Of a DNA stretch of 11,198 nucleotides, positions 1-8,626 are shown piece by piece; position 1 is the first letter of the stretch, and each line of letters begins with the position of its first letter. A program made the translations under genes and the position numbers. The DNA is taken from positions 1-11,198 of the forward strand of contig CAKTVN010000036.1 of assembly GCA_934623545.1 (NCBI GenBank). The letters run 5' to 3'. A model generated the notes under the pieces. The model was not told where the DNA came from, ran no database searches, and saw only the letters and a list, made by a program, of their open reading frames with translations. Origin of the DNA: an uncultured Oscillospiraceae bacterium. GTDB lineage: Bacteria > Bacillota > Clostridia > Oscillospirales > Oscillospiraceae.

Positions 1-264
1 GCCCATGATGATCCATGGACGGTATTTGCCGCCCTTGAGCTGCGCCTTATCGATCACGATGCCGGAAGCGAGCATGGTCGCTACCTCGACCCACTGCACG
101 GCAGAATAGATCGCCGCGGCAGTCAGCATCGGCAGGCACAGCACGTCCGTCAGATAGTACATAAGGTAATACGCGACAAGGAAGTTGAAAAAGGTGAAGC
201 CGAACTCACCGAGACCGTAGCCGTAGGAAAACAGCTTGCTGATTGTTTTCTTCTGTGCCGCCAT
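1..264 (-). CDS. GPH-family sugar/cation symporter, N-terminal part (gene runs off left edge)
   Basis: The 88 codons in the window encode the N-terminus of a glycoside-pentoside-hexuronide (GPH) type major facilitator transporter of the cytoplasmic membrane. After a short basic start (MAAQKKTISK) come two hydrophobic segments at about residues 18-38 and 48-70. They are followed by the family's cytoplasmic loop signature, an acidic residue then G-G-K-Y-R-P-W (about residues 72-84). The ATG at 264 is preceded by TAGGAGGATC on the minus strand (271-280), a strong ribosome binding site. It is the last visible gene of the leftward methyltransferase operon, 100 bp after a full-length paralogue. The two share the pattern FLAYY/N..FYLT.VL.L but are clearly diverged, so they may take up different substrates or form a pair. 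The substrate cannot be told from sequence. The C-terminal part lies outside the window. Confidence 0.85.
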   Translation of the reverse strand, partial: MAAQKKTISKLFSYGYGLGEFGFTFFNFLVAYYLMYYLTDVLCLPMLTAAAIYSAVQWVEVATMLASGIVIDKAQLKGGKYRPWIIMG

Positions 265-273
265 GGAATCGAT

Positions 274-279
274 CCTCCT
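274..279 (-). promoter_or_regulatory. Ribosome binding site of the second transporter
   Basis: On the minus strand this reads TAGGAG within TAGGAGGATC, placed about ten bases upstream of the ATG at 264. It fixes the start of the partial transporter. Confidence 0.75.
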
Positions 280-295
280 AAAATACGGCGATTTT

Positions 296-334
296 ACCGC
301 TGCGGCAGCGGTACAGGGGAACTGCACCGCTGCC
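296..334 (-). other. Overlapping alternative hairpins between the two transporter genes
   Basis: The 100-bp gap between the transporters holds three related segments that can pair in two mutually exclusive ways. Segment 304-312 can pair with 326-334 over 9 bp (GGCAGCGGT with ACCGCTGCC), extended by CAG/CTG at 314-316 and 322-324. Alternatively, 296-302 can pair with 306-312 over 7 bp with a CGG loop. Neither form is followed by a U-run in the leftward transcript, so a simple intrinsic terminator is unlikely. The structure lies about 20 bases upstream of the ribosome binding site of the second transporter. It could act as an RNA-processing or stability element that sets relative expression, or as a switch; the role is inference. 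Confidence 0.5.
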
Positions 335-364
335 GGTTCGATTTTTGCGGGTCAGCAGAACGTG

Positions 365-1723
365 TTATGCGTTCTTGGCTGCCTTCTGAGCGGCACGCTC
401 GGCTCTCCAGGCGTCGAGCTCCTTCTCATCGATGTGATAGAAGATGAAGATCAGAGCGGAGAGGACGCAGACCGCTGCGGGCGCGAACGCCATGAGGTAG
501 GTGATGGAATTGATCATCTTTTCGGTGATCTGGACCGTTGCGTCATAGCCGATCGCAACCAGTGCGAAGGAGCAGACGGTCGCGGACAGGGCGGAACCGA
601 AGCGGATGGTCGTGCCGGAGATCGACTGGATCATGGCACGGTTGTCGGTGCCGTACTTCATCAGATTGTAGTCCGCAATGTCGTTTGCGAAGACCGGGAT
701 CAGCATACCGCCGACAACGCTGAAGCAGCCGATGGCGACACGCAGGATGAGGAACGGAATGGAGGTGCGACCGATGAATGCGATCAGCATATAGAGGATG
801 CCGGTGAGGATGGAGAAGTAGACAAATGCGCGCTTCTTGCCCATCTTATCGCAGATGATCTTGCTGAGCCATGCGCCGATCAGACCGGCGACGGAGCCCG
901 CGGTGACTGCGGTGCTGAGGATGACGGGATCCTGAAGGACGTACTGGGTGAAGTATGCCAGCAGCGTCATAAAGAAGCCTATGTGCATATTGTTGAGGAT
1001 CATGGCGAAGAAGAACGGGATCGTGGGACCGGTCATTGCCTTCAGGAAGCCGCCCTTGACCTTTTCCTTCTTCTGCGCGGCGACGACAGGCTCGGAGCCG
1101 TTGTCGAAGTTTCTGGTCAGCGAGAACATACCGATCGTGCCGACTACGATGAACAGACCGTAGACCAGCGCGGTCCAGGTGTAGCTGTCGCCGACAGCCT
1201 TCATGATGAAGGGGTTGACGACGCCATAGATCAGACCGCCGAGGGTGCTGCCCTGCTGGGCGACCATCGCGAGGCTGTTGGCGTCAGCGGCAGTCGTGCT
1301 CATAGGACCGACCAGGGAGCGCTCTGCGACCCAGAGGGTGTTGTAGCCGATGGACTGGATGACGAACATCACGACGAACAGTGCGCCGGCTACGCCCTGG
1401 GAGAGACCGAAGTTTGCAAACAGCAGCGTGAACGTGATGCCGACGACGATGCCGCCGATGACCGTCCAGGTGCGGAATTTGCCGGATTTGAAGGTGAACT
1501 TTTCAATGATGGCGCCAGCCAGGAGCATCGTGACAACGTTGCCCCAGACGGAGAGCGTATTCACGACGGCGGAGATCTGCGTGCTGAGCTGTAGAACATT
1601 GGTTAGATAAAAGAGGCGGTTGTATGCCAGGAACATCAGATAGAAGGTGTTCAGGAACATACCGAAGAAGCCATAAAGCAGGATCTGGCTCTTCTTCAGA
1701 CCTTGAGGCTTTAATTCACTCAT
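365..1723 (-). CDS. GPH-family sugar/cation symporter-like MFS transporter
   Basis: A 452-residue polytopic membrane protein with about twelve hydrophobic segments, the normal length for the GPH branch of the major facilitator superfamily. Members are cation-linked symporters of glycosides and similar small solutes. The loop after the second pair of helices carries a GPH-like signature, E-K-F-T-F-K-S-G-K-F-R-T-W at about residues 74-86. A short charged tail (about 430-452, Ala/Lys rich) is cytoplasmic. An in-frame ATG at 1744 would add seven residues, but the ATG at 1723 has AAAGGAAG (1730-1737) at good distance and is preferred. The gene follows the 48-residue protein by 51 bp and precedes a paralogue by 100 bp, in the same operon as corrinoid methyltransferases. 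It therefore most likely imports the methyl donor, or the sugar-linked form of it. The actual solute is unknown. Confidence 0.88.
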   Translation of the reverse strand: MSELKPQGLKKSQILLYGFFGMFLNTFYLMFLAYNRLFYLTNVLQLSTQISAVVNTLSVWGNVVTMLLAGAIIEKFTFKSGKFRTWTVIGGIVVGITFTLLFANFGLSQGVAGALFVVMFVIQSIGYNTLWVAERSLVGPMSTTAADANSLAMVAQQGSTLGGLIYGVVNPFIMKAVGDSYTWTALVYGLFIVVGTIGMFSLTRNFDNGSEPVVAAQKKEKVKGGFLKAMTGPTIPFFFAMILNNMHIGFFMTLLAYFTQYVLQDPVILSTAVTAGSVAGLIGAWLSKIICDKMGKKRAFVYFSILTGILYMLIAFIGRTSIPFLILRVAIGCFSVVGGMLIPVFANDIADYNLMKYGTDNRAMIQSISGTTIRFGSALSATVCSFALVAIGYDATVQITEKMINSITYLMAFAPAAVCVLSALIFIFYHIDEKELDAWRAERAAQKAAKNA

Positions 1724-1774
1724 GTTTTTCTTCCTTTCTCTCATTACGTCAAAGTGTGTATGAATGCTTCGGGG

Positions 1775-1921
1775 TCACTGGCGCACCAGCGTCGAGATGA
1801 GGTTCATCACAAACGCCTCGCGCTGCGCGGTCGCTTCCGGGGGGATCGGCAGATTCAGCTCCTTCGCCAGATACTGCAAGCCTTCCGGATACTTTGTCAG
1901 GTCGACCTTTTGTTCTTCCAT
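1775..1921 (-). CDS. 48-residue conserved-position small protein of unknown function
   Basis: A short open frame from ATG at 1921 to TGA at 1775 gives a 48-residue acidic to neutral soluble peptide. It starts MEEQKVDLTKYPEGLQYLA and has a central Leu-Pro-Ile-Pro-Pro stretch (about 24-28) and a C-terminal amphipathic helix-like part (about 33-47). It contains no Cys, no membrane segment and no signal peptide. Thirty-eight of 48 sense codons end in G or C, like the flanking genes, which supports real coding. It fits neatly between the UroD-fold methyltransferase (30 bp upstream) and the transporter (51 bp downstream). AAAGGAT lies upstream of the ATG, though about 12 bases away, which is rather far. 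I do not recognise a family. It could be a subunit or partner of the methyltransferase, or a regulator of the transporter. No function is assigned. Confidence 0.65.
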   Translation of the reverse strand: MEEQKVDLTKYPEGLQYLAKELNLPIPPEATAQREAFVMNLISTLVRQ

Positions 1922-1951
1922 AGCACTTTCAGATCCTTTCTTTTTGATTTA

Positions 1952-3127
1952 TTAAGGTCGGTATTCCCGGACAAAATCACAGACCGCTTTTACATTTTCA
2001 GGCTTTGCATCGTTGCGGAACGAGACCATCTTGTCCTGGCAGAGGATGAAACCGCCGTCATGACCAAGCTCGTCGCACAGACGCTTGGTGTAATCCACGC
2101 ATTCCTTCGCGGTGCCGTTGCCGAGGAGGCTCACGGGCATACCGCCGAGGATGGCACAGTTCGGAAGCTGCTTGCGGAGCTCGAACACATCGTCCTGCTC
2201 CGGATGCATGGTGATGATGCCCTTGGGATAATCCTTCAGATAGTCCCAGAAGCGGCTGCTGCTGCCCTCGAAGAACAGACGCACCGTCAGCTTCTTCTCT
2301 GCCAGAAGATCGAGCACTGCCTTCAGGTTCGGCCAGAGGAAGCGCTCAAACTGCTTCGGATTGAGGATCGTGTGGCAGAGCATGGTGATATCATAGTCAA
2401 AGCAGTAGTCCGGGTTCGGACCGGCGGATTTGCGCAGCGCCTCGAGACCGGGGTTGAAGTAGAGCTCATTGAGCGCGTCAATGGCTGCCTCGACCTTGGC
2501 GGGATCCTTGCGCATATCCAGAGAAAGCCCGCGGATGCCGCGGATGGTGTTGAACAGAAAGTCAAGACCGCAGTAGGTGAAGCCGTTGGTCGGGCAGGTG
2601 AACAGCGGAACGCCGTACTCGTCCTTCATCAGCTTTGTGATCCCCATGTGGTACTTGATGAACGCCATCTGCTCGTCAACAGCTTTCTGAACGTCGCTGA
2701 CCTTGACGGTGCCGTCCGCCCAGCAGGGATACTTCTTTGCCATGCCCTTCTCCCAGAAGAATTTCTTCGGGTCGGCGATCAGCTCGTCCAGCTCCTCGCG
2801 CTCGGCAAGCGCCTTGTCGAGATAGCTGACGGTCCCGGCTTCGTCGTTGACGATGTAGCTCGTGCCGCCGAGCGCGGCGGGGATGCGTATGGCGTTTCGA
2901 CCGCCATACTCAAAGATGGCGTCGAAGCCGTATTTCTCCTGATGCTGGCGGACGACCTTTTCCATGATGGAATAGTCGTTCATTGCCTCGGAGAGCTTAT
3001 ACTGCGAGTCGAGGATCTTCCATGTTACGAAGAAGGAAACGTGCGGGACACGCTCCGGCTTGACCTGCATGGAGCTTGCGTCGCGGATGAGTTTCAGTCG
3101 GTATTTTTCCAATTCCTGTGGAGTCAA
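1952..3127 (-). CDS. Uroporphyrinogen-decarboxylase-fold corrinoid methyltransferase (MtaA/CmuA-like superfamily)
   Basis: A 391-residue soluble TIM-barrel protein of the UroD superfamily, which outside haem synthesis contains methyltransferases that move methyl groups between a substrate or coenzyme and a corrinoid protein. Its place between a corrinoid protein and transporters argues for the methyltransferase role, probably substrate:corrinoid. Family landmarks are P-T-N-G-F at about 179-183, R-F-L-W-P-N-L (262-268), L-G-G-M-P-V-S-L-L-G-N-G-T (327-339) and the C-terminal G-G-F-I-L-C (358-363) followed by K-P-E-N-V-K-A-V. At the place where MtaA/MtbA enzymes have the zinc-binding His-x-Cys, this protein reads L-F-F-E-G (284-288), so the usual zinc pair is missing although Cys363 remains. 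The start is TTG at 3127, chosen because AGGAGGAG lies six bases before it. It could also be a methyltransferase with a different metal site or an enzyme with another activity. Confidence 0.78.
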   Translation of the reverse strand: MTPQELEKYRLKLIRDASSMQVKPERVPHVSFFVTWKILDSQYKLSEAMNDYSIMEKVVRQHQEKYGFDAIFEYGGRNAIRIPAALGGTSYIVNDEAGTVSYLDKALAEREELDELIADPKKFFWEKGMAKKYPCWADGTVKVSDVQKAVDEQMAFIKYHMGITKLMKDEYGVPLFTCPTNGFTYCGLDFLFNTIRGIRGLSLDMRKDPAKVEAAIDALNELYFNPGLEALRKSAGPNPDYCFDYDITMLCHTILNPKQFERFLWPNLKAVLDLLAEKKLTVRLFFEGSSSRFWDYLKDYPKGIITMHPEQDDVFELRKQLPNCAILGGMPVSLLGNGTAKECVDYTKRLCDELGHDGGFILCQDKMVSFRNDAKPENVKAVCDFVREYRP

Positions 3128-3133
3128 AGCAAT

Positions 3134-3141
3134 CTCCTCCT
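3134..3141 (-). promoter_or_regulatory. Ribosome binding site fixing a TTG start
   Basis: The minus strand reads AGGAGGAG here, six bases before TTG at 3127. No ATG or GTG lies closer, so the UroD-fold gene most probably begins with TTG. The next in-frame ATG is at residue 20 and would remove the conserved N-terminus. Confidence 0.7.
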
Positions 3142-3169
3142 ATTTTTGTGTTTGTGGCGGAACAGGGTC

Positions 3170-3811
3170 TCAGCCCGCCTTGCTCCATTCCTGACAAACG
3201 GAGACGGTCTTCTGCGGGCTGTGCGCCCACTCGTCCGCGCCGGTGATCTTCATGGCTTCTTCGCTGACGGGCGCGCCGCCGATGATGACCTTCACATCGT
3301 TGAGCCCGGCTGCCTTGAGCGCGTCGACCGTCTTCTTCATCGAGTCGATCGCGAGCGTCAGAACGCCGCTGAGCGCGACAATCTTGATGTTCTCCGCCTT
3401 GACGGTCTCCACGACCTTTTCCGCCGGGACGTCGATGCCGAGATCGATGACCTCGAAGCCGGCTGCCTCCAGCATGGAACGGACGATGTTCTTGCCGATG
3501 TCGTGCAGGTCGTCCTTGACGGTGCACAGCAGCATCTTTGTCTTGCTGCCGCTGCCGCCGTCACCGGTGACGAGCGCATCCTTGAGCATACCGACCGCCG
3601 TGGTCATGAGCTCGCCGGCGTAGATGAGGTCGCCGACGAAATACTCGCCGCTTTCAAAGCGCTGACCGACGATGTCCATGCCCTTCTGGCAGGCGTCCAT
3701 CGCAGACTGCGCCTGGGAGCCGCCGTCTGCCATGACCTCGTTCAGCATTTCCGTCATGGTGTCTTCGTCGAGATCGCCCATGGCTTCTGCCAATGCATCA
3801 AAATCTACCAT
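3170..3811 (-). CDS. Corrinoid (B12-binding) methyl-carrier protein, MtaC/MtbC/MttC type
   Basis: A 213-residue cytoplasmic protein that carries the methyl group on cobalt. Residues 1-85 form the helical B12-binding-2 cap (for example R-F-E-S-G-E-Y-F-V-G-D-L at 51-62). Residues 92-213 form the Rossmann-like cobalamin domain. The base-off/His-on motif DxHxxG is D101-L-H103-D-I-G106, with H103 the expected lower axial cobalt ligand. S148 (L-S-G-V-L-T) and the G178-G179 turn (I-I-G-G-A-P-V) are the other cobalamin contacts of the family. Length and domain order are complete. It is preceded by AGGGGG at 3821-3827 (plus-strand CCCCCT) and sits between the two methyltransferases it should serve. 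The substrate depends on the partner enzyme and cannot be read from this gene. Confidence 0.93.
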   Translation of the reverse strand: MVDFDALAEAMGDLDEDTMTEMLNEVMADGGSQAQSAMDACQKGMDIVGQRFESGEYFVGDLIYAGELMTTAVGMLKDALVTGDGGSGSKTKMLLCTVKDDLHDIGKNIVRSMLEAAGFEVIDLGIDVPAEKVVETVKAENIKIVALSGVLTLAIDSMKKTVDALKAAGLNDVKVIIGGAPVSEEAMKITGADEWAHSPQKTVSVCQEWSKAG

Positions 3812-3840
3812 TTGTAATTACCCCCTATGCAAGTGCTTGT

Positions 3841-3936
3841 GTTGTGGTTGGCTTGGGAACCGGTTGGTGGTGTTGGTTGTTCGAATGTACAAAACGTTTG
3901 GGAACGTTGGGAACACGATGGGATGTTGGGATGGGA
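3841..3936 (-). other. C-rich, G-poor intercistronic leader before the corrinoid gene
   Basis: The 125-bp gap between the DHPS-fold methyltransferase and the corrinoid gene is strongly skewed. Counted on the transcribed (minus) sense, positions 3936-3841 hold 40 C, 9 G, 29 A and 18 T in 96 bases. Such unstructured C-over-G tracts are what Rho-type termination sites look like. They can also serve as unstructured leaders that favour ribosome loading or RNA cleavage. No open frame or hairpin terminator was seen. Its function is inference, but the composition differs sharply from the flanking genes. Confidence 0.45.
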
Positions 3937-4749
3937 TTATTTCTTGGGAGCGCCGATCTTGCCCTGACGGTAGGCACGGTTGTACTTGCGTCCAGACTTG
4001 TCCTTGCAAGTCAGAGCCTCGCAGGCGTAGATGGTGCTCATCATGTCGATGCTGCACGGGTCGAGGATGGCGGAGTCGAGTCCCGCCTCCAGCGCGTATG
4101 CCATGCAGTTCGTGTTGATGTACTTCCGGGCGGGCATATTGAAGGAGATGTTGGAGATGGCGCCGGTCACCTTGACCTCGGGCGCGTACTCATGGATGCC
4201 GCGGATGCAGGTCTGGAAGTCCTCCATCGCGTTGGGAAGCGTCGCCAGCGCCATGACGCAGGGGTCGATGTGCAGGTTCTTCAGCGCGACGCCGTAATGG
4301 TCTGCCTTGTCGATGATACGCTTCGCGATGTCGATCTTCTTCTGGCTCTCGTAGGGAATGCCGCCCTGGTCGCAGGTCAGACCGATGACGTTCCAGTCGG
4401 TCCCGGCGATGAGCGGGAAGATGGTCTCGCACTTGTCGCCCTCTTCGTTGACGGAATTGACCATGCCGGGTCTTGCGACGCGACCTTCGTTCAGGATGCG
4501 GGCGAGCAGGTGTGCGTTCGGGCTGTCGATGCACAGCGGCGTCTCGGAGACGGACTGCATCAGATCGATCAGCCAGCACATGGTCTCATACTCGATCTCC
4601 GTCGCGGTGGACGGCGCACAGTCGAGGAAGTTTGCGCCAGCCTCGGTCTGGGCGATGGTGCGTTCCTTGATCAGCGCTTCGTTGTGGTCCGCGATCGCCT
4701 GCTTGATGGAAGGGATCGCGCCGTTGATTTTTTCACCAATGATGATCAT
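3937..4749 (-). CDS. Pterin-binding (DHPS-fold) methyltransferase, corrinoid:tetrahydrofolate type (AcsE/MtgA-like)
   Basis: A 270-residue single-domain TIM barrel of the dihydropteroate synthase/MeTr family, close in length to AcsE and MtgA. It is expected to move methyl groups between the corrinoid protein and tetrahydrofolate in the cytoplasm, feeding the folate branch of the Wood-Ljungdahl pathway. Visible pterin-site landmarks are the N-terminal I-I-G-E-K-I-N (3-9), C-I-D-S with D75, M-V-N-S-V with N98, I-D-P with D162, and G-A-I-S-N-I-S-F-N-M-P-A-R (196-208). N200 there matches the catalytic Asn region of AcsE-type enzymes. The first Asp motif reads L-D-C-A (42-45), where many relatives have D-x-N. 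It lacks the residues expected for folate synthesis context, and no folate genes are nearby. It is the first gene of the leftward operon, with GAGAGGTG before its ATG. Confidence 0.88.
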   Translation of the reverse strand: MIIIGEKINGAIPSIKQAIADHNEALIKERTIAQTEAGANFLDCAPSTATEIEYETMCWLIDLMQSVSETPLCIDSPNAHLLARILNEGRVARPGMVNSVNEEGDKCETIFPLIAGTDWNVIGLTCDQGGIPYESQKKIDIAKRIIDKADHYGVALKNLHIDPCVMALATLPNAMEDFQTCIRGIHEYAPEVKVTGAISNISFNMPARKYINTNCMAYALEAGLDSAILDPCSIDMMSTIYACEALTCKDKSGRKYNRAYRQGKIGAPKK

Positions 4750-4775
4750 TGTGTCAAAACACCTCTCTGTTCACG

Positions 4776-4792
4776 GCTGCCGGAAGGGCAGC
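4776..4792 (-). other. Small stem-loop in the leader of the leftward operon
   Basis: A 6-bp GC-rich stem (GCTGCC at 4776-4781 with GGCAGC at 4787-4792) with a 5-base loop lies in the roughly 60-base leader between the predicted transcript start and the ribosome binding site. There is no U-run after it. It may only stabilise the 5' end of the mRNA. Confidence 0.4.
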
Positions 4793-4804
4793 AAGTATAT
4801 GGAC

Positions 4805-4822
4805 TACCTGTATATACAAGTA
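4805..4822. promoter_or_regulatory. Probable GntR/UTRA operator palindrome
   Basis: TACCTGTATATACAAGTA is an 18-bp inverted repeat with one mismatched pair and a perfect 10-bp core TGTATATACA. Cores of the TTGTATATACAA kind are, from memory, known as operators of HutC/UTRA-branch GntR repressors such as TreR. The site overlaps the -10 box of the leftward promoter (4819-4824) and covers the expected transcript start, a typical repressor position. The only regulator gene in the locus is the GntR/UTRA protein at 7901-8626, so it is the likely binder. An 8-bp direct repeat, CAAGTATA, occurs at 4792-4799 and 4817-4824 and may mark a second weak half-site. Confidence 0.65.
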
Positions 4823-4847
4823 TAGCGCCTATGTGCGAATTTTGCAA
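4819..4847 (-). promoter_or_regulatory. Sigma-A promoter of the leftward methyltransferase/transporter operon
   Basis: On the minus strand the -35 box is TTGCAA (4847-4842) and the -10 box TATACT (4824-4819), separated by exactly 17 bases. Transcription should begin near 4812, inside the palindrome at 4805-4822, and leave a leader of about 60 bases before the ATG at 4749. Confidence 0.7.
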
Positions 4848-4921
4848 TCCGTCGGAAGCGACAAAAATCAACAGGAAAATTTGTTAGACATTCATATTTT
4901 CAAAGATCGCGCATTCCGTAC

Positions 4922-4950
4922 TTGATTCAAAACACGTCATCCGCTATGAT
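4922..4950 (+). promoter_or_regulatory. Sigma-A promoter of the rightward activator operon
   Basis: TTGATT (4922-4927) and TATGAT (4945-4950) are 17 bases apart. They are followed by the purine-rich ribosome binding site AAAGGCGGTG at 4960-4969 and the ATG at 4978. The short 5' leader of roughly 20 bases fits. The palindrome lies about 100 bp upstream and would not directly block this promoter. Confidence 0.65.
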
Positions 4951-4977
4951 AACAAAAGAAAAGGCGGTGCTTTTGGG

Positions 4978-6453
4978 ATGAATTATAAGGTTACGCTGCC
5001 GGAGCTCGGGCGAACGATCGAGGCTCCTGCGGGGCAGACTCTGCTTGAGGTGCTGCGCGCGGCGGGCTGCGCGCCCGAGGCGCCGTGCGGCGGCAAGGGC
5101 GTATGCGGCAAGTGCCGCGTCCGCGTGAACGGCGCGGAGCGGCTCGCCTGCCAGACAGTGGTGGACGGTCCTGTCACAGTCTCGCTTCCGGAGCGGGCGC
5201 GGCAGGAGCGCATTCTGACCGGCGGCTGCGAGCAGGCGGACACGGAGCCGGCGGAGCCGGTCAGAGCGGGGCTGCTGCTCGCATTCGACATCGGAACGAC
5301 GACCATCGCGGGCTATCTCATGGACGAGACGGGCGCGCAGATCGCGACCGGAAGCCGACTCAATCCGCAGGCGCCCTTCGGCGCGGATGTGATCACGCGC
5401 ATCCAGCTGGCGCTGAAGGGAGAGCAGGAGGCGCTGACGCGCTGCGTGCGCGAAGCGCTTGCGGACCTGACGCGCGAGCTTTTGAATGCGGCGAAGCGGG
5501 AGGCGGATGCGCTTGGTACGATCTGCGTGGTCGGCAATCCGTGTATGCAGCAGCTGTTTCTCGGCATTTCTCCGAAGAATCTCGCAGGCGTGCCGTTTGC
5601 GCCGGTGTTGACACAGACGGAGATCTCCCGCGCCGGGGATGTGATCGCGCTTTGGGGCGACGCGGCGCTGCTGACGGTCCCGGATATCTCAGGCTATGTC
5701 GGCGCGGACACCGTGGGCTGCGTCCTCGCGACGCAGATGGACCGCAGCGATGAGATCACGCTGATGGTCGACATCGGCACGAACGGCGAAATGGTCATGG
5801 GGAGCCGCGCACGCATGGTCGCCTGCTCCACGGCGGCGGGACCCGCGCTGGAGGGCGCAAACATCCGCTTCGGGATGCGCGCGGCAGACGGCGCGATCGA
5901 CCATGTCACGGTGGAAAACGGCGGGATATGCTGCCATGTCCTCGGTGGGGGCGAGGCGCACGGCATCTGCGGCTCAGGGCTGATCGATGCGGTCGCCGCG
6001 CTGAAGGAGCTCGGGCTGGTCAACCGGCGCGGGCGGCTCCAGACGCAGGAGCAGTTTGAAGGGGACCTTGCGGTCCGGCTCAGCGGGGAGGTCTGGCTGA
6101 CGCAGAACGATGTGCGCCAGGTGCAGCTTGCCAAGGGCGCGATCTCCGCGGGCATCGGACTGATGGCGCGCCATCTCGGCATCGAGGTCGGTCAGATCGA
6201 CCGTCTGCTGCTCGCGGGCGCGTTCGGAAGCTTCATCCGTGTGGAAAGCGCCTGCCGGATCGGGCTTCTGCCGCAGGAGCTTCTGGAAAAGGCGCAGGCG
6301 GTCGGCAACGCCGCCGGAAGCGGCGCAAAGCGCGCGGCGCGCAGCCGGAAAGCGTTTGAGCATACGCAGGAGCTTGTGCGTGAGATCGAATTTCTGGAGC
6401 TTGCGAGCCTGCCGGATTTTCAGCATGAATTTGCCCGGGGAATGTGGATTTGA
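4978..6453 (+). CDS. Reductive activator of corrinoid proteins (RACo-like, 2Fe-2S plus ASKHA ATPase, DUF4445)
   Basis: A 491-residue cytoplasmic protein that uses ATP and a low-potential electron donor to bring accidentally oxidised Co(II) corrinoid back to Co(I). Residues 1-75 are a plant-type [2Fe-2S] ferredoxin domain with C37-x5-C43-x2-C46-x11-C58. After a short linker the ASKHA ATPase part shows D-I-G-T-T at 104-108, D-I-G-T-N-G-E at 265-271, A-G-P-A-L-E-G-A (287-294), C-G-S-G-L-I-D (331-337), Q-N-D-V-R-Q-V-Q-L-A-K (376-386) and A-G-A-F-G (413-417). It is shorter than the roughly 600-650 residues I recall for characterised RACo proteins, mainly in the linker and middle region. It has no C-terminal 4Fe-4S cluster motifs as in RamA. 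It opens the rightward operon next to the methyltransferase genes, and both corrinoid proteins here are plausible clients. Confidence 0.9.
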   Translation: MNYKVTLPELGRTIEAPAGQTLLEVLRAAGCAPEAPCGGKGVCGKCRVRVNGAERLACQTVVDGPVTVSLPERARQERILTGGCEQADTEPAEPVRAGLLLAFDIGTTTIAGYLMDETGAQIATGSRLNPQAPFGADVITRIQLALKGEQEALTRCVREALADLTRELLNAAKREADALGTICVVGNPCMQQLFLGISPKNLAGVPFAPVLTQTEISRAGDVIALWGDAALLTVPDISGYVGADTVGCVLATQMDRSDEITLMVDIGTNGEMVMGSRARMVACSTAAGPALEGANIRFGMRAADGAIDHVTVENGGICCHVLGGGEAHGICGSGLIDAVAALKELGLVNRRGRLQTQEQFEGDLAVRLSGEVWLTQNDVRQVQLAKGAISAGIGLMARHLGIEVGQIDRLLLAGAFGSFIRVESACRIGLLPQELLEKAQAVGNAAGSGAKRAARSRKAFEHTQELVREIEFLELASLPDFQHEFARGMWI

Positions 6454-6459
6454 GCCGCC

Positions 6460-6488
6460 TTGCAATCTGCGGAATCTGATGCTATACT
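6460..6488 (+). promoter_or_regulatory. Internal promoter before the DUF1638-corrinoid-regulator genes
   Basis: TTGCAA (6460-6465), a 17-base spacer and TATACT (6483-6488) lie just after the activator stop codon. The hexamers and spacing are identical to those of the leftward promoter at 4819-4847. A small inverted repeat CTGAA-T-TTCAG (6487-6497) sits over the end of the -10 box and the start region. The promoter would let DUF1638, the second corrinoid protein and the regulator be made independently of the activator. No TGTATATACA core is present here. Confidence 0.6.
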
Positions 6489-6541
6489 GAATTTCAGGAA
6501 AAACGAAGAAACGATGGGAAGAGAACGCTTTGAAGGATGAA

Positions 6542-7210
6542 ATGAGAACGTGCATCATCTCCTGCGACGTGGTCCGCAGAGAGCTGGAGCAGGTCTGCGC
6601 GGAGCTGGGCTGTACGCTGCCGGTCTTCTGGACGGGCTCGGGGCTGCACAACTATCCCGCCCGCCTGTGCGAGCGGCTTCAGGAGCTGATCGAGGGCGAG
6701 GCTGCGGCATTTGACCGCATCCTGCTTGCGACCGGCTTCTGCGGGGATTCCTTCTGCGGGCTGAAGACCCGGCACGCGGAGCTCATCATCCCGCGCACGG
6801 ATGACTGCATTTCTCTTCTGCTGGGCTCGGCGGAAAACCGGAGGAAGCTCACTGAGCGCTGCGGGACGTATTTTCTGACCGAGGGCTGGCTCGATTCGGA
6901 CAAGAGCATTTTTGCCGAATACCGCCACACGGTCGAGCGTTACGGCGAGGCGCGCGCAAAGCGCGTATTCGGTGTGATGTTTGCGCACTATGAGCGTGTC
7001 GCCGTGATCGACACGGGCGCGTATGCGGTCGCGCCGGTCTATGAAAAGGCGCAGGAGATGGCGAGTACGCTCGGGCTGCGCTGTGAGCTCCTGCCCGGAA
7101 AGCAGAGCTATCTGCGTACGCTGCTGACCGGTCCGTGGACGCAGGAGCAGTTTCTGATCCTGCCGCCGGGCAGCACGGTCGAGCGCGAAATGCTCTCGAA
7201 GCTTTATTGA
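6542..7210 (+). CDS. DUF1638 protein
   Basis: A 222-residue soluble protein that matches what I know of the DUF1638 family (PF07796), often found beside corrinoid methyl-transfer genes in anaerobes and methanogens. Its biochemical function is not known to me. Landmarks, counted from the chosen ATG, are I-I-S-C-D-V (5-10), L-H-N-Y-P (35-39), G-F-C-G-D (65-69), R-T-D-D-C-I-S-L-L-L-G-S (85-96) and Y-F-L-T-E-G-W (110-116). The repeated Cys/His/Asp positions (C67, C72, H78, C89) look fit for metal or thiol chemistry. The frame is open from TTG at 6530, four codons upstream. ATG at 6542 with AAGGA just before it gives the family-like start MRTCIISCD and is preferred, although the spacing is short. 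It is followed after 45 bp by the second corrinoid protein, which suggests they act together. Confidence 0.8.
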   Translation: MRTCIISCDVVRRELEQVCAELGCTLPVFWTGSGLHNYPARLCERLQELIEGEAAAFDRILLATGFCGDSFCGLKTRHAELIIPRTDDCISLLLGSAENRRKLTERCGTYFLTEGWLDSDKSIFAEYRHTVERYGEARAKRVFGVMFAHYERVAVIDTGAYAVAPVYEKAQEMASTLGLRCELLPGKQSYLRTLLTGPWTQEQFLILPPGSTVEREMLSKLY

Positions 7211-7225
7211 GCGCGCGCTGCGCGC
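7211..7225 (+). other. GC-only hairpin right after the DUF1638 stop codon
   Basis: GCGCGC (7211-7216) can pair with GCGCGC (7220-7225) around a 3-base loop. An overlapping perfect 14-bp palindrome CGCTGCGCGCAGCG runs 7216-7229. No T-run follows, so it is not a standard terminator. It may protect or separate the DUF1638 and corrinoid messages. Confidence 0.4.
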
Positions 7226-7255
7226 AGCGAGAAAGATACGTTTGAGGTGTTGACG

Positions 7256-7894
7256 ATGGAATATATCATGCCGCTGGTACAGGCGATGGCAGAGCTGGAT
7301 GAAAAGTCGCTCATGGACGCCATGCAGGACGCGCTGCGTGAAAAGCAGAAAACAGAGCGGATCGAGAACAGCCTTCAGGAGGGGCTGAAGCAGGTCGGCG
7401 TGCGCTTTGCGCAGGGACAGTATTATCTGGCGGACATGATCGTGAGCGGAGACCTCTATCAGGAGGCGATGAATCTGCTCATCAGCAACAAACAGCTTGA
7501 GGGGCGTCAGCAGAAAAGCGGCAAGGTGCTCATCGGCGTCATGAAGGACGACATCCATGACATCGGCAAGGACATCGTGCAGATGCTGCTCAAGCTGGAC
7601 GGCTTCGATGTGATGGACCTCGGCGTCGATGTGCCGACGGAGGAGTTTCTCTCCGCGGTGCAGAGCTATCAGCCGGATATCATCGCGTTGTGCGGCGTCA
7701 TGTCTTTCTCCGCAGACCATATGACGGAGACGATCCGCCGTCTGGGCGAGCTTCCGAACCGCAGCAGCTTCCGGGTCATTGTCGGCGGGAGCTGCGTGAA
7801 TGAGAAGACCGCGCTGGACATCGGCGCGGACGGGTTTACACGCGATGCCTACAACGTCCCAAAGCTCTGCACGAAACTCATGAGGGAGCGCTGA
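7256..7894 (+). CDS. Second corrinoid (B12-binding) methyl-carrier protein
   Basis: A 212-residue corrinoid protein with a helical B12-binding-2 cap (about 1-85) and a cobalamin-binding Rossmann domain (about 90-212). DxHxxG is present as D99-I-H101-D-I-G104, H101 being the expected cobalt ligand, and G177-G178 lie in I-V-G-G-S-C. The position that is Ser in the family SxL motif is Cys here (L-C146-G-V-M), unlike the paralogue at 3170-3811, which keeps Ser. The frame is open from GTG at 7247, but ATG at 7256 has GAGGTG six bases before it and is chosen. It is grouped with DUF1638 and the regulator, away from the methyltransferases. It may therefore serve another methyltransferase encoded elsewhere, or work with DUF1638. 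Confidence 0.9.
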   Translation: MEYIMPLVQAMAELDEKSLMDAMQDALREKQKTERIENSLQEGLKQVGVRFAQGQYYLADMIVSGDLYQEAMNLLISNKQLEGRQQKSGKVLIGVMKDDIHDIGKDIVQMLLKLDGFDVMDLGVDVPTEEFLSAVQSYQPDIIALCGVMSFSADHMTETIRRLGELPNRSSFRVIVGGSCVNEKTALDIGADGFTRDAYNVPKLCTKLMRER

Positions 7895-7900
7895 GAACGG

Positions 7901-8626
7901 ATGATGAGCATACAGAAGGGACCTGTTTATCAGGAAATCTATCACGATCTCAAGCGCCTGCTTCAGGGCGGGAGCAAAAAGCCGGGCGACGATCTTCCGT
8001 CGGAGAATATGCTTGCGGCGCAGTATCAGACGACCAGGACGACGGTGCGCAAAAGCCTTCAGCTGCTGGAAAAGGAGGGGCTGATCCACTCCTGGGCGGG
8101 GAAGGGCTACTTTGTCTCGCAGCCGACGCACAATGCCTTTACGCTGGATTTTCCGGAGGATGAGCAGCTGCACAGCGGCAGCTACAAGCGCATCTCTGTC
8201 GTGAAGGCGGATACGGCGCTTCTGCGCGTTTTTGCGCTGGAGGCGGGGAAGCGCGTGATCAAGATCTGCCGCAGCATCGACGAGGGCGAGCGCTGCGTCG
8301 CCTATGACGTCAAGTATCTGCCGTATACGAAGGGGCAGCCGATGATCGAGCAGGAGATCAATTATTTCGTGCCCTTCCCGGACATCGTGTCGAGAATGGT
8401 GCCGACGTTCCTGTTCTACACGGAGCTGGAGATCACGGCGGTCCTCGCGCCAAAGGAGGTCGCGCCGATCTTGGGCTGTTCCGAAACGGAGCCGCTTTTG
8501 CTGCTGCGGCGCAGATTCATGGATCAGGATCGCCACTGTATCGGCTATGGCGAGCGCTATCAGCGGCAGGGCGCGCAGAGCGGGAGCATCACCGCGCGCT
8601 CCGGCTATCAGACCCAGCCGGGCTGA
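7901..8626 (+). CDS. GntR-family transcriptional regulator, HutC/UTRA type
   Basis: A 241-residue DNA-binding regulator. Residues 7-75 form the GntR winged helix: P-V-Y-Q-E-I-Y-H-D-L-K at 8-18, L-P-S-E-N-M-L-A at 32-39, T-T-V-R-K-S-L-Q-L-L at 47-56 and the wing G-K-G-Y-F-V at 67-72. Residues about 95-241 form the UTRA effector domain, with F-M-D near 206-208 and the usual ligand pocket of small metabolites. Members are mostly repressors released by the pathway substrate or intermediate. It begins six bases after the second corrinoid gene and closes the operon, so it would be made together with its targets. The palindrome at 4805-4822 is its most likely binding site. The effector is not known; a methylated substrate or its sugar moiety is a guess. 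A second ATG three bases downstream could also start it. Confidence 0.9.
   Translation: MMSIQKGPVYQEIYHDLKRLLQGGSKKPGDDLPSENMLAAQYQTTRTTVRKSLQLLEKEGLIHSWAGKGYFVSQPTHNAFTLDFPEDEQLHSGSYKRISVVKADTALLRVFALEAGKRVIKICRSIDEGERCVAYDVKYLPYTKGQPMIEQEINYFVPFPDIVSRMVPTFLFYTELEITAVLAPKEVAPILGCSETEPLLLLRRRFMDQDRHCIGYGERYQRQGAQSGSITARSGYQTQPG

Follow-up and report, generated by a model that had tools for sequence, protein, structure and literature searches.

The stretch of DNA analysed here, called the window, comprises 11,198 nucleotides of contig CAKTVN010000036.1 from an uncultured Oscillospiraceae bacterium and carries a block of two divergent operons for corrinoid-dependent methyl transfer. With protein families assigned by Pfam and NCBIfam profiles, nine open reading frames (ORFs) account for all families that an earlier, sequence-only reading of this DNA had named, i.e. 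transporters, a UroD-fold methyltransferase, two corrinoid proteins, a DHPS-fold methyltransferase, a RACo-like activator, a DUF1638 protein and a GntR regulator (table 1). The leftward operon runs from MT2 through the first corrinoid protein (CP1) and UroD to a tandem pair of GPH transporters, the second of which is cut at base 1, and the rightward operon encodes RACo, DUF1638, the second corrinoid protein (CP2) and GntR, with a divergent promoter region of 228 bases (4750-4977) between them. That reading had also called the two-operon system complete, which is too strong because one transporter leaves the window and further genes follow in several relatives; the gene set itself stands, and since it recurs, whole or in part, in relatives, it is more than a chance assembly. 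Our best overall explanation, to which we assign a probability of about 0.55, is that the block represents a catabolic corrinoid methyl-transfer module that comes with its own switch, the CP2-GntR pair, and it is this pair that is the new element.

Table 1. Features of the window, with position, strand and basis of assignment.
Feature	Position	Strand	Basis
GPH-type (MFS_2) transporter, N-terminal 109 residues, rest beyond window edge	1..327	-	Pfam PF13347
GPH-type (MFS_2) transporter, second of tandem pair	365..1744	-	Pfam PF13347
UroD-fold methyltransferase, proposed substrate:corrinoid protein methyltransferase (MTI)	1952..3127	-	URO-D
CP1, corrinoid protein, proposed methyl carrier	3170..3811	-	B12-binding cap and fold; closest solved chain 4jgi
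MT2, methylcorrinoid:tetrahydrofolate methyltransferase (MeTr/DHPS-like)	3937..4749	-	Pterin_bind/MeTr; NCBIfam PRK07535, 294.9 against a cut-off of 259
HutC-like palindrome CCTGTATATACAAG, proposed GntR operator	4807..4820	.	one mismatch to CTTGTANNTACAAG
RACo-like reductive activator of corrinoid proteins	4978..6453	+	Pfam RACo_C_ter, Raco_middle, Fer2; closest solved 3zyy
DUF1638 protein, proposed helper of corrinoid reactivation	6530..7210	+	Pfam PF07796; mutant phenotype of a homologue (PMC5764234)
CP2, corrinoid protein of GntR-linked clade, proposed sensor/co-regulator	7247..7894	+	two B12-binding domains; clade; adjacency; DxHDIGK
GntR/UTRA (HutC-type) transcriptional regulator, 6 bp after CP2	7901..8626	+	Pfam GntR and UTRA

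A UroD-type corrinoid methyltransferase system

An MTI, a corrinoid protein, a tetrahydrofolate methyltransferase and an activating enzyme, which together characterize UroD-type corrinoid demethylases, all have a candidate in the window, and from these families and their recurrence we predict a corrinoid methyltransferase system of the UroD type that ranks with the O-demethylases and Cdm, in support of the demethylation system suggested before. The same four-part plan is found with the O-demethylases of acetogens (OdmB, VdmB and MtvB; D. hafniense) and with the archaeal MtoB, a comparison made by gene plan and not by the sequences of these proteins; the window has DUF1638, CP2, GntR and the GPH pair in addition. 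The likeness extends to single components, with MT2 closest to the solved chains 4o0q, 4o1e and 4o1f (E 2.8e-82) and CP1 closest to 4jgi, which we take to be the corrinoid protein of the D. hafniense O-demethylase. An O-demethylase corrinoid protein of D. hafniense is described in PMC3727330, and a paper on a component of the D. hafniense O-demethylase is among the references of PMC13222342, in which 4O1E and 4O1F serve as folate model.

Within this set the UroD-fold protein would be the substrate enzyme, as the sequence-only reading had proposed and as its precedents in the UroD superfamily, i.e. CdmB, MtvB, OdmB, VdmB and MtoB (PMC13222342), make plausible. It belongs to the superfamily by its UroD TIM-barrel fold, and its sole solved sequence relative is CdmB from the Cdm chloromethane system of Acetobacterium dehalogenans, which combines a UroD-fold MTI with a corrinoid protein and an MTII just as the window does (PMC13222342). 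A haloalkane such as chloromethane could then be the donor, as for CdmB, and cdmB homologues have been suggested in gut Blautia, Robinsoniella and Eubacterium (PMC13222342). Identity to CdmB, however, is 24% over 298 columns and the window protein lies far from the CdmB branch, on a separate branch of a quick tree with a weak root, so that the close kinship expected of a Cdm system was not found; moreover, GPH carriers would be unnecessary for a dissolved gas, and unlike Cdm the window block has transporters and a paired regulator. Taken together, this makes a haloalkane a highly improbable donor. We rather regard the catalytic part as a further member of the UroD-type demethylases, in a clade for which we found no assigned substrate and to which methoxylated aromatic aldehydes, as discussed below, provide a lead.

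Two other assignments were considered and rejected. The zinc site of the coenzyme M-type (SCMT) thiol enzymes has a motif of His-x-Cys...Cys ligands, whereas the window family has no conserved His/Cys pair, with no His and one Cys (C343) in the invariant and near-invariant columns of 35 rows. This resembles CdmB, which needs no zinc (PMC13222342). Type 1 mlp gene clusters are defined by two or more Mlps together with the lack of a tetrahydrofolate methylase over 20 kb around them (PMC10418091), whereas the window encodes one URO-D protein and one MT2.

The sequence-only reading had itself stated that UroD homologues not linked to corrinoid genes would speak against it. One scan of genome contigs yielded 76 UroD loci, many of them on short contigs, in which ORFs were chosen by codon-usage score (where the GC content was high, choice by length apparently favoured antisense shadows). 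A corrinoid protein gene was found in 43 of these loci and an MT2 gene in 40. Where at least 3 kb were available on both sides (50 loci), a corrinoid protein or MT2 gene was present within 3 kb of UroD in 31 loci and only RACo or DUF1638 in one; the remaining 18, with none of the four genes within this distance, count against the reading proposed here. With flanks of 8 kb (26 loci), 20 had a corrinoid protein or MT2 gene within 8 kb and six had none of the four. Linkage of UroD to corrinoid genes is thus common but not fixed, and the outcome of this check is mixed. As such the protein family is rare. In one family, 8 of 400 genomes gave a match with an E value of 1e-40 or lower, and in a second family 3 of 397 did so.

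All 12 host genomes of relatives that were tested, reached through 14 loci, encode the carbon monoxide dehydrogenase/acetyl-CoA synthase (CODH/ACS) subunit PF03598, whereas only two of 14 control genomes did so, both of them archaeal; therefore, to judge from the genomes of its relatives, the Wood-Ljungdahl pathway is the most likely destination of the methyl group. We infer the following direction of methyl flow. A GPH-type carrier would import the methyl donor, the UroD-fold enzyme would move the donor methyl group to Co(I) on CP1, and MT2 would hand it over from CP1 to tetrahydrofolate, with the resulting methyl-tetrahydrofolate feeding the Wood-Ljungdahl pathway and RACo together with DUF1638 re-reducing corrinoid that has become oxidised.

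CP2 and its proposed partner GntR

The regulator has a GntR helix-turn-helix as well as a UTRA domain by Pfam and thus belongs to the GntR/HutC regulators; its best NCBIfam match is HutC, at 73 against an equivalog cut-off of 220, so it is not HutC itself. What the sequence-only reading had missed is that CP2 apparently goes with this regulator and not with the catalytic set. CP1 and CP2 of the window are only 30% identical and fall into separate clades. A GntR gene is present in 10 of the 76 UroD loci and in the window, and in 11 of 11 cases it is immediately preceded by a same-strand corrinoid protein gene, with a spacing of -203 to +16 bp (by longest ORFs). In a tree of 58 corrinoid proteins, these 11 GntR-linked CP2 proteins form one branch (100/97; found in 99% of 200 bootstrap trees), from which the corrinoid proteins beside UroD, including the CP1 clade, fall apart, and linkage to GntR requires one change on this tree, compared with a mean of 10.2 after shuffling. 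Moreover, identity to the window copies in seven loci is 51-75% for CP1, but 30-41% for CP2 and 32-44% for GntR, i.e. the divergence of CP2 matches that of the regulator and not that of CP1. The DxHDIGK motif and the GG turn are kept in all 11 CP2 proteins, which thereby show the B12-binding motif expected of regulators of the AerR/CarH kind.

An important question is whether this pairing extends beyond the loci in which it was noticed. A profile (A2) built from the 11 CP2 proteins, without any GntR sequence in the query, was used to search 391 Clostridia-class genomes, 300 genomes of the Sporomusa locus class, two of which gave matches at E 1e-62, and 20 genomes of the Thermacetogenium locus class. 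When only the order CP-then-GntR was counted, the pair was found in 11 of 11 loci from L121 to L131, in none of L132-L134, in L135 and in none of L136-L149; in the Thermacetogenium class only one of six best hits passed. Inspection of the neighbouring genes revealed that GntR instead immediately precedes CP2 there, and both gene orders were then counted. Among the 82 hits then examined (for the Clostridia class the top hit of each of 29 genomes together with 20 more, plus the Sporomusa- and Thermacetogenium-class hits), a same-strand GntR gene was the neighbour of 12 of the 13 that scored at least 245 bits, of 6 of 18 at 228-245, of 6 of 25 at 218-228 and of 3 of 26 below 218 bits, with score bins that were chosen after the data had been seen. 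This count leaves out ORFs below 170 amino acids, GntR ORFs below 110 amino acids or 60 bits, six further Thermacetogenium-class matches at 220-224 bits, and loci L150, L153 and L159, i.e. three more corrinoid proteins with no adjacent GntR (219.3, 223.8 and 205.3 bits), whose inclusion changes the two lower bins to 6 of 27 and 3 of 27. Four rows (L108, L206 and two in L211) come from genomes that had also contributed to the profile, none of them in the top bin. The sole miss above 245 bits, L189, has a GntR-like ORF of 148 amino acids 291 bp upstream. Most pairs of the Thermacetogenium class have the opposite order, with GntR preceding CP2; in L188-L192 GntR is immediately upstream of CP2 (broken or short in L189), and inspection by eye also showed a nearby MT2-like ORF in L188, L189, L190 and L192.

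Alternatively, CP2 could be a second methyl carrier for a substrate enzyme encoded elsewhere, sharing a transcript with GntR merely by history. Its intact B12-binding motif, the presence of RACo and DUF1638 in its operon and the many CP2-profile matches at 218-245 bits that adjoin UroD genes instead of GntR would all be compatible with such a role. By contrast, the tie of a single clade to GntR, its lower conservation than that of CP1 in the same loci and the preservation of the pairing in both gene orders speak against such a role. Furthermore, in nine of 16 extended regions (L151, L152, L154-L158, L161 and L163, the nine being 12-19 kb long) the CP-GntR pair occurs with no UroD, MT2 or RACo gene found, although MttB genes were not searched for; L160 would be a tenth such region, but one of its ORFs looks like a UroD-family member by eye. 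A role as a second carrier therefore seems rather unlikely to us, and the stand-alone pairs may act on distant operons.

A putative operator, CCTGTATATACAAG, lies between the two operons and deviates by one mismatch from the palindrome CTTGTANNTACAAG, which resembles HutC sites. With up to two mismatches allowed, the window contains two sites, the second being inside MT2 (3997), compared with 0.13 expected, a number reached by 4 of 200 shuffles. At no more than one mismatch, 12 sites were found in the 11 GntR loci (0.0 expected) and four in the 66 loci without GntR (0.6 expected). Three of these four (in L004, L006 and L008) are located just before MT2 or UroD with no GntR in the flanks, and the respective genomes (G003, G005 and G004) have a CP2-GntR pair elsewhere. 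Over all 77 sequences, 12 of the 16 sites fall within -60 to 250 bp upstream of where a gene for methyl transfer, a transporter or a regulator starts, a zone that takes in 11.5% of random positions; the other four are in L018 (9287), L056 (5336 and 6935) and L065 (1271).

In the switch as we envisage it, CP2 would not be a second carrier. It would bind corrinoid as a partner of the GntR protein of HutC type and inform this protein of how much corrinoid there is, in what state it is or whether substrate has methylated it, with GntR in turn acting on the palindrome between the operons. More specifically, and tentatively, since we place this at somewhat less than even odds, CP2-GntR may be an undescribed split sensor, in which a former methyl carrier monitors corrinoid for its methylation or redox state and signals to a HutC-type repressor of methyltransferase operons, in cis as well as in trans, in anaerobic Bacillota. 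CarH has a helix-turn-helix fused to its B12 domains in one chain, whereas CP2 shows only the two B12-binding domains. AerR-CrtJ of purple bacteria provides a precedent for a free B12 protein steering a transcription factor (PMC6199135); there, as proposed here, a separate B12-binding protein acts through its partner, but the B12 protein of the window is of the methyl-carrier type, the factor is GntR/HutC, the context is anaerobic methyl metabolism and the interaction is putative. In E. limosum, genes of the trimethylamine methyltransferase family usually lie together with genes for a B12-binding protein and a GntR protein (PMC4791908), and in the literature searched we found no description of a carrier-type corrinoid protein paired with GntR as a regulator. 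Numerous methyltransferase systems operate side by side in acetogens (26 in A. dehalogenans), and their regulation ‘remains largely unexplored’ (PMC13222342). A tie between the genes of a regulator and a corrinoid protein suggests that a cell may detect a donor by way of the cofactor chemistry with which it consumes that donor, and a split sensor of this kind, if real, would explain how anaerobic Bacillota sense methyl donors.

Several observations weigh against this proposal. The tree of corrinoid proteins has long branches, produced warnings about long-branch joining and its bootstrap had not quite settled. Identities in the same seven loci range from 41 to 79% for UroD and from 47 to 77% for MT2, so low identity is not peculiar to CP2 and therefore only its contrast with CP1 stands. 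As the B12 motif is kept, CP2 could still carry methyl groups. The operator motif was picked by eye from part of the same loci, and it fails to discriminate among the held-out loci, being over-represented in both sets (four sites compared with 0.25 expected in 27 GntR-adjacent loci, and six compared with 0.45 expected in 49 non-adjacent ones); it is thus support and not proof. A putative action of CP2 on GntR, physical or functional, is suggested by adjacency, clade and operator.

Transporters and the methyl donor

From the GPH transporters, the sequence-only reading had derived a sugar-linked or organic-acid-like donor. Members of the GPH family are known for sugars, and the tandem pair does recur (in L001, L003-L006 and L010). 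GPH genes scoring above 150 bits occur in 18 of the 76 loci, most of which cluster around the window in the quick UroD tree. Membership in MFS_2 alone, however, fixes no substrate, and neither window protein, one of the two being truncated at the end of the window, reaches the cut-off of the gph subfamily model TIGR00792. What does recur beside GPH-linked loci is a gene whose product, a molybdenum hydroxylase, has some 980 residues (truncated in L014); it adjoins the operon in six of the 76 loci, all of them among the 18 with strong GPH genes. It follows the transporters in L001, L006, L010 and L014 and UroD in L030 and L069, and in five of the six loci a gene for an NAD(P)/dicluster protein comes next. 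Profiles run on representatives (L010 and L030, and L006 for the partner) match the hydroxylase to the aldehyde oxidoreductase family NF045668, with 1124.6 bits in L010 (cut-off 1100) and 972.1, i.e. below the cut-off, in L030, and give 635.1 against an NCBIfam cut-off of 530 for the dicluster partner; the top PDB matches of the L010 protein are 1dgj and 1sij. L001, the nearest locus to the window by path length in the quick tree, has the hydroxylase directly after its two transporters.

The recurrence of a MOP-type aldehyde oxidoreductase near GPH-linked loci favours a methoxylated aromatic aldehyde or acid. For a methoxylated aromatic in general, a plant-type compound that in the pathway outlined above would be the most likely donor, we see about even odds, and for the group of relatives to which the window belongs the best fit is probably a methoxylated aromatic aldehyde that is both oxidised and demethylated, the methyl donor probably being the aldehyde or the acid formed from it. 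Against this, the oxidoreductase gene is missing from most GPH-linked loci (some on short contigs), including well-flanked ones such as L004, L005, L008 and L013, and the window ends before the place where it would stand. A methyl ether of a sugar or an organic acid has in its favour, besides the tandem GPH copies, a melibiase-like glycosidase (named from L037) that adjoins a GPH-cluster gene in L033, L037, L038 and L068. These loci, however, are on a distant UroD branch, with the glycosidase a few genes from UroD and in the opposite reading direction, and no such glycosidase was found among the recurring families at the 18 strong-GPH loci, in a scan of 20 family representatives. We therefore consider a sugar-type donor clearly improbable. 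A purine or another N-heterocycle, which the xanthine dehydrogenase (XDH)-family molybdenum enzyme had brought to mind, was set aside, though not excluded, because NCBIfam and PDB place the enzyme with the MOP-type aldehyde oxidoreductases.

Two further gene families were seen at such loci. A family-5 solute-binding protein of an ABC importer (named from L004) is encoded in L001 (2866-4593) and L004 (14621-16291) and could be an alternative importer, and a PucR-type regulator family (named from L069) is present in L030 (686-2197), L069 (6580-8154) and L019 (8240-9823), GPH-UroD loci at which no GntR was found.

DUF1638 and other genes at these loci

DUF1638 travels with CP2-GntR in several loci, among them three of the stand-alone regions (L151, L152 and L155). 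A DUF1638 mutant of P. inhibens was rescued by methionine, and the protein has been assigned to B12 reactivation with no specific proposal being made (PMC5764234), and in R. pomeroyi growing on N-osmolytes DUF1638 was more abundant, together with RamA (PMC12478193). A confident structural model of the window protein (predicted local distance difference test score, pLDDT, 90.4) gave no confident fold match. Across eight rows, C12, H40, C71 and C93 are invariant, and these residues possibly form a metal site.

Elsewhere in the window, a tRNA search found none, and a scan with Rfam gave no family at its gathering score. On the minus strand between 8700 and 11196, the window encodes an FMN_red/flavodoxin (flavin reductase) protein, a DUF4015 protein and PrmA, for which we saw no tie to the cluster. 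Among the relatives, another recurring family stands beside UroD in L017 (1704-2768), L018 (7656-8702) and L047, the member in L018 being a pyridoxal phosphate (PLP)-dependent beta-eliminating lyase, and a family of proteins of about 342 residues (c43) occurs nine times in L036, L044 and L070, with seven of these occurrences in L036.

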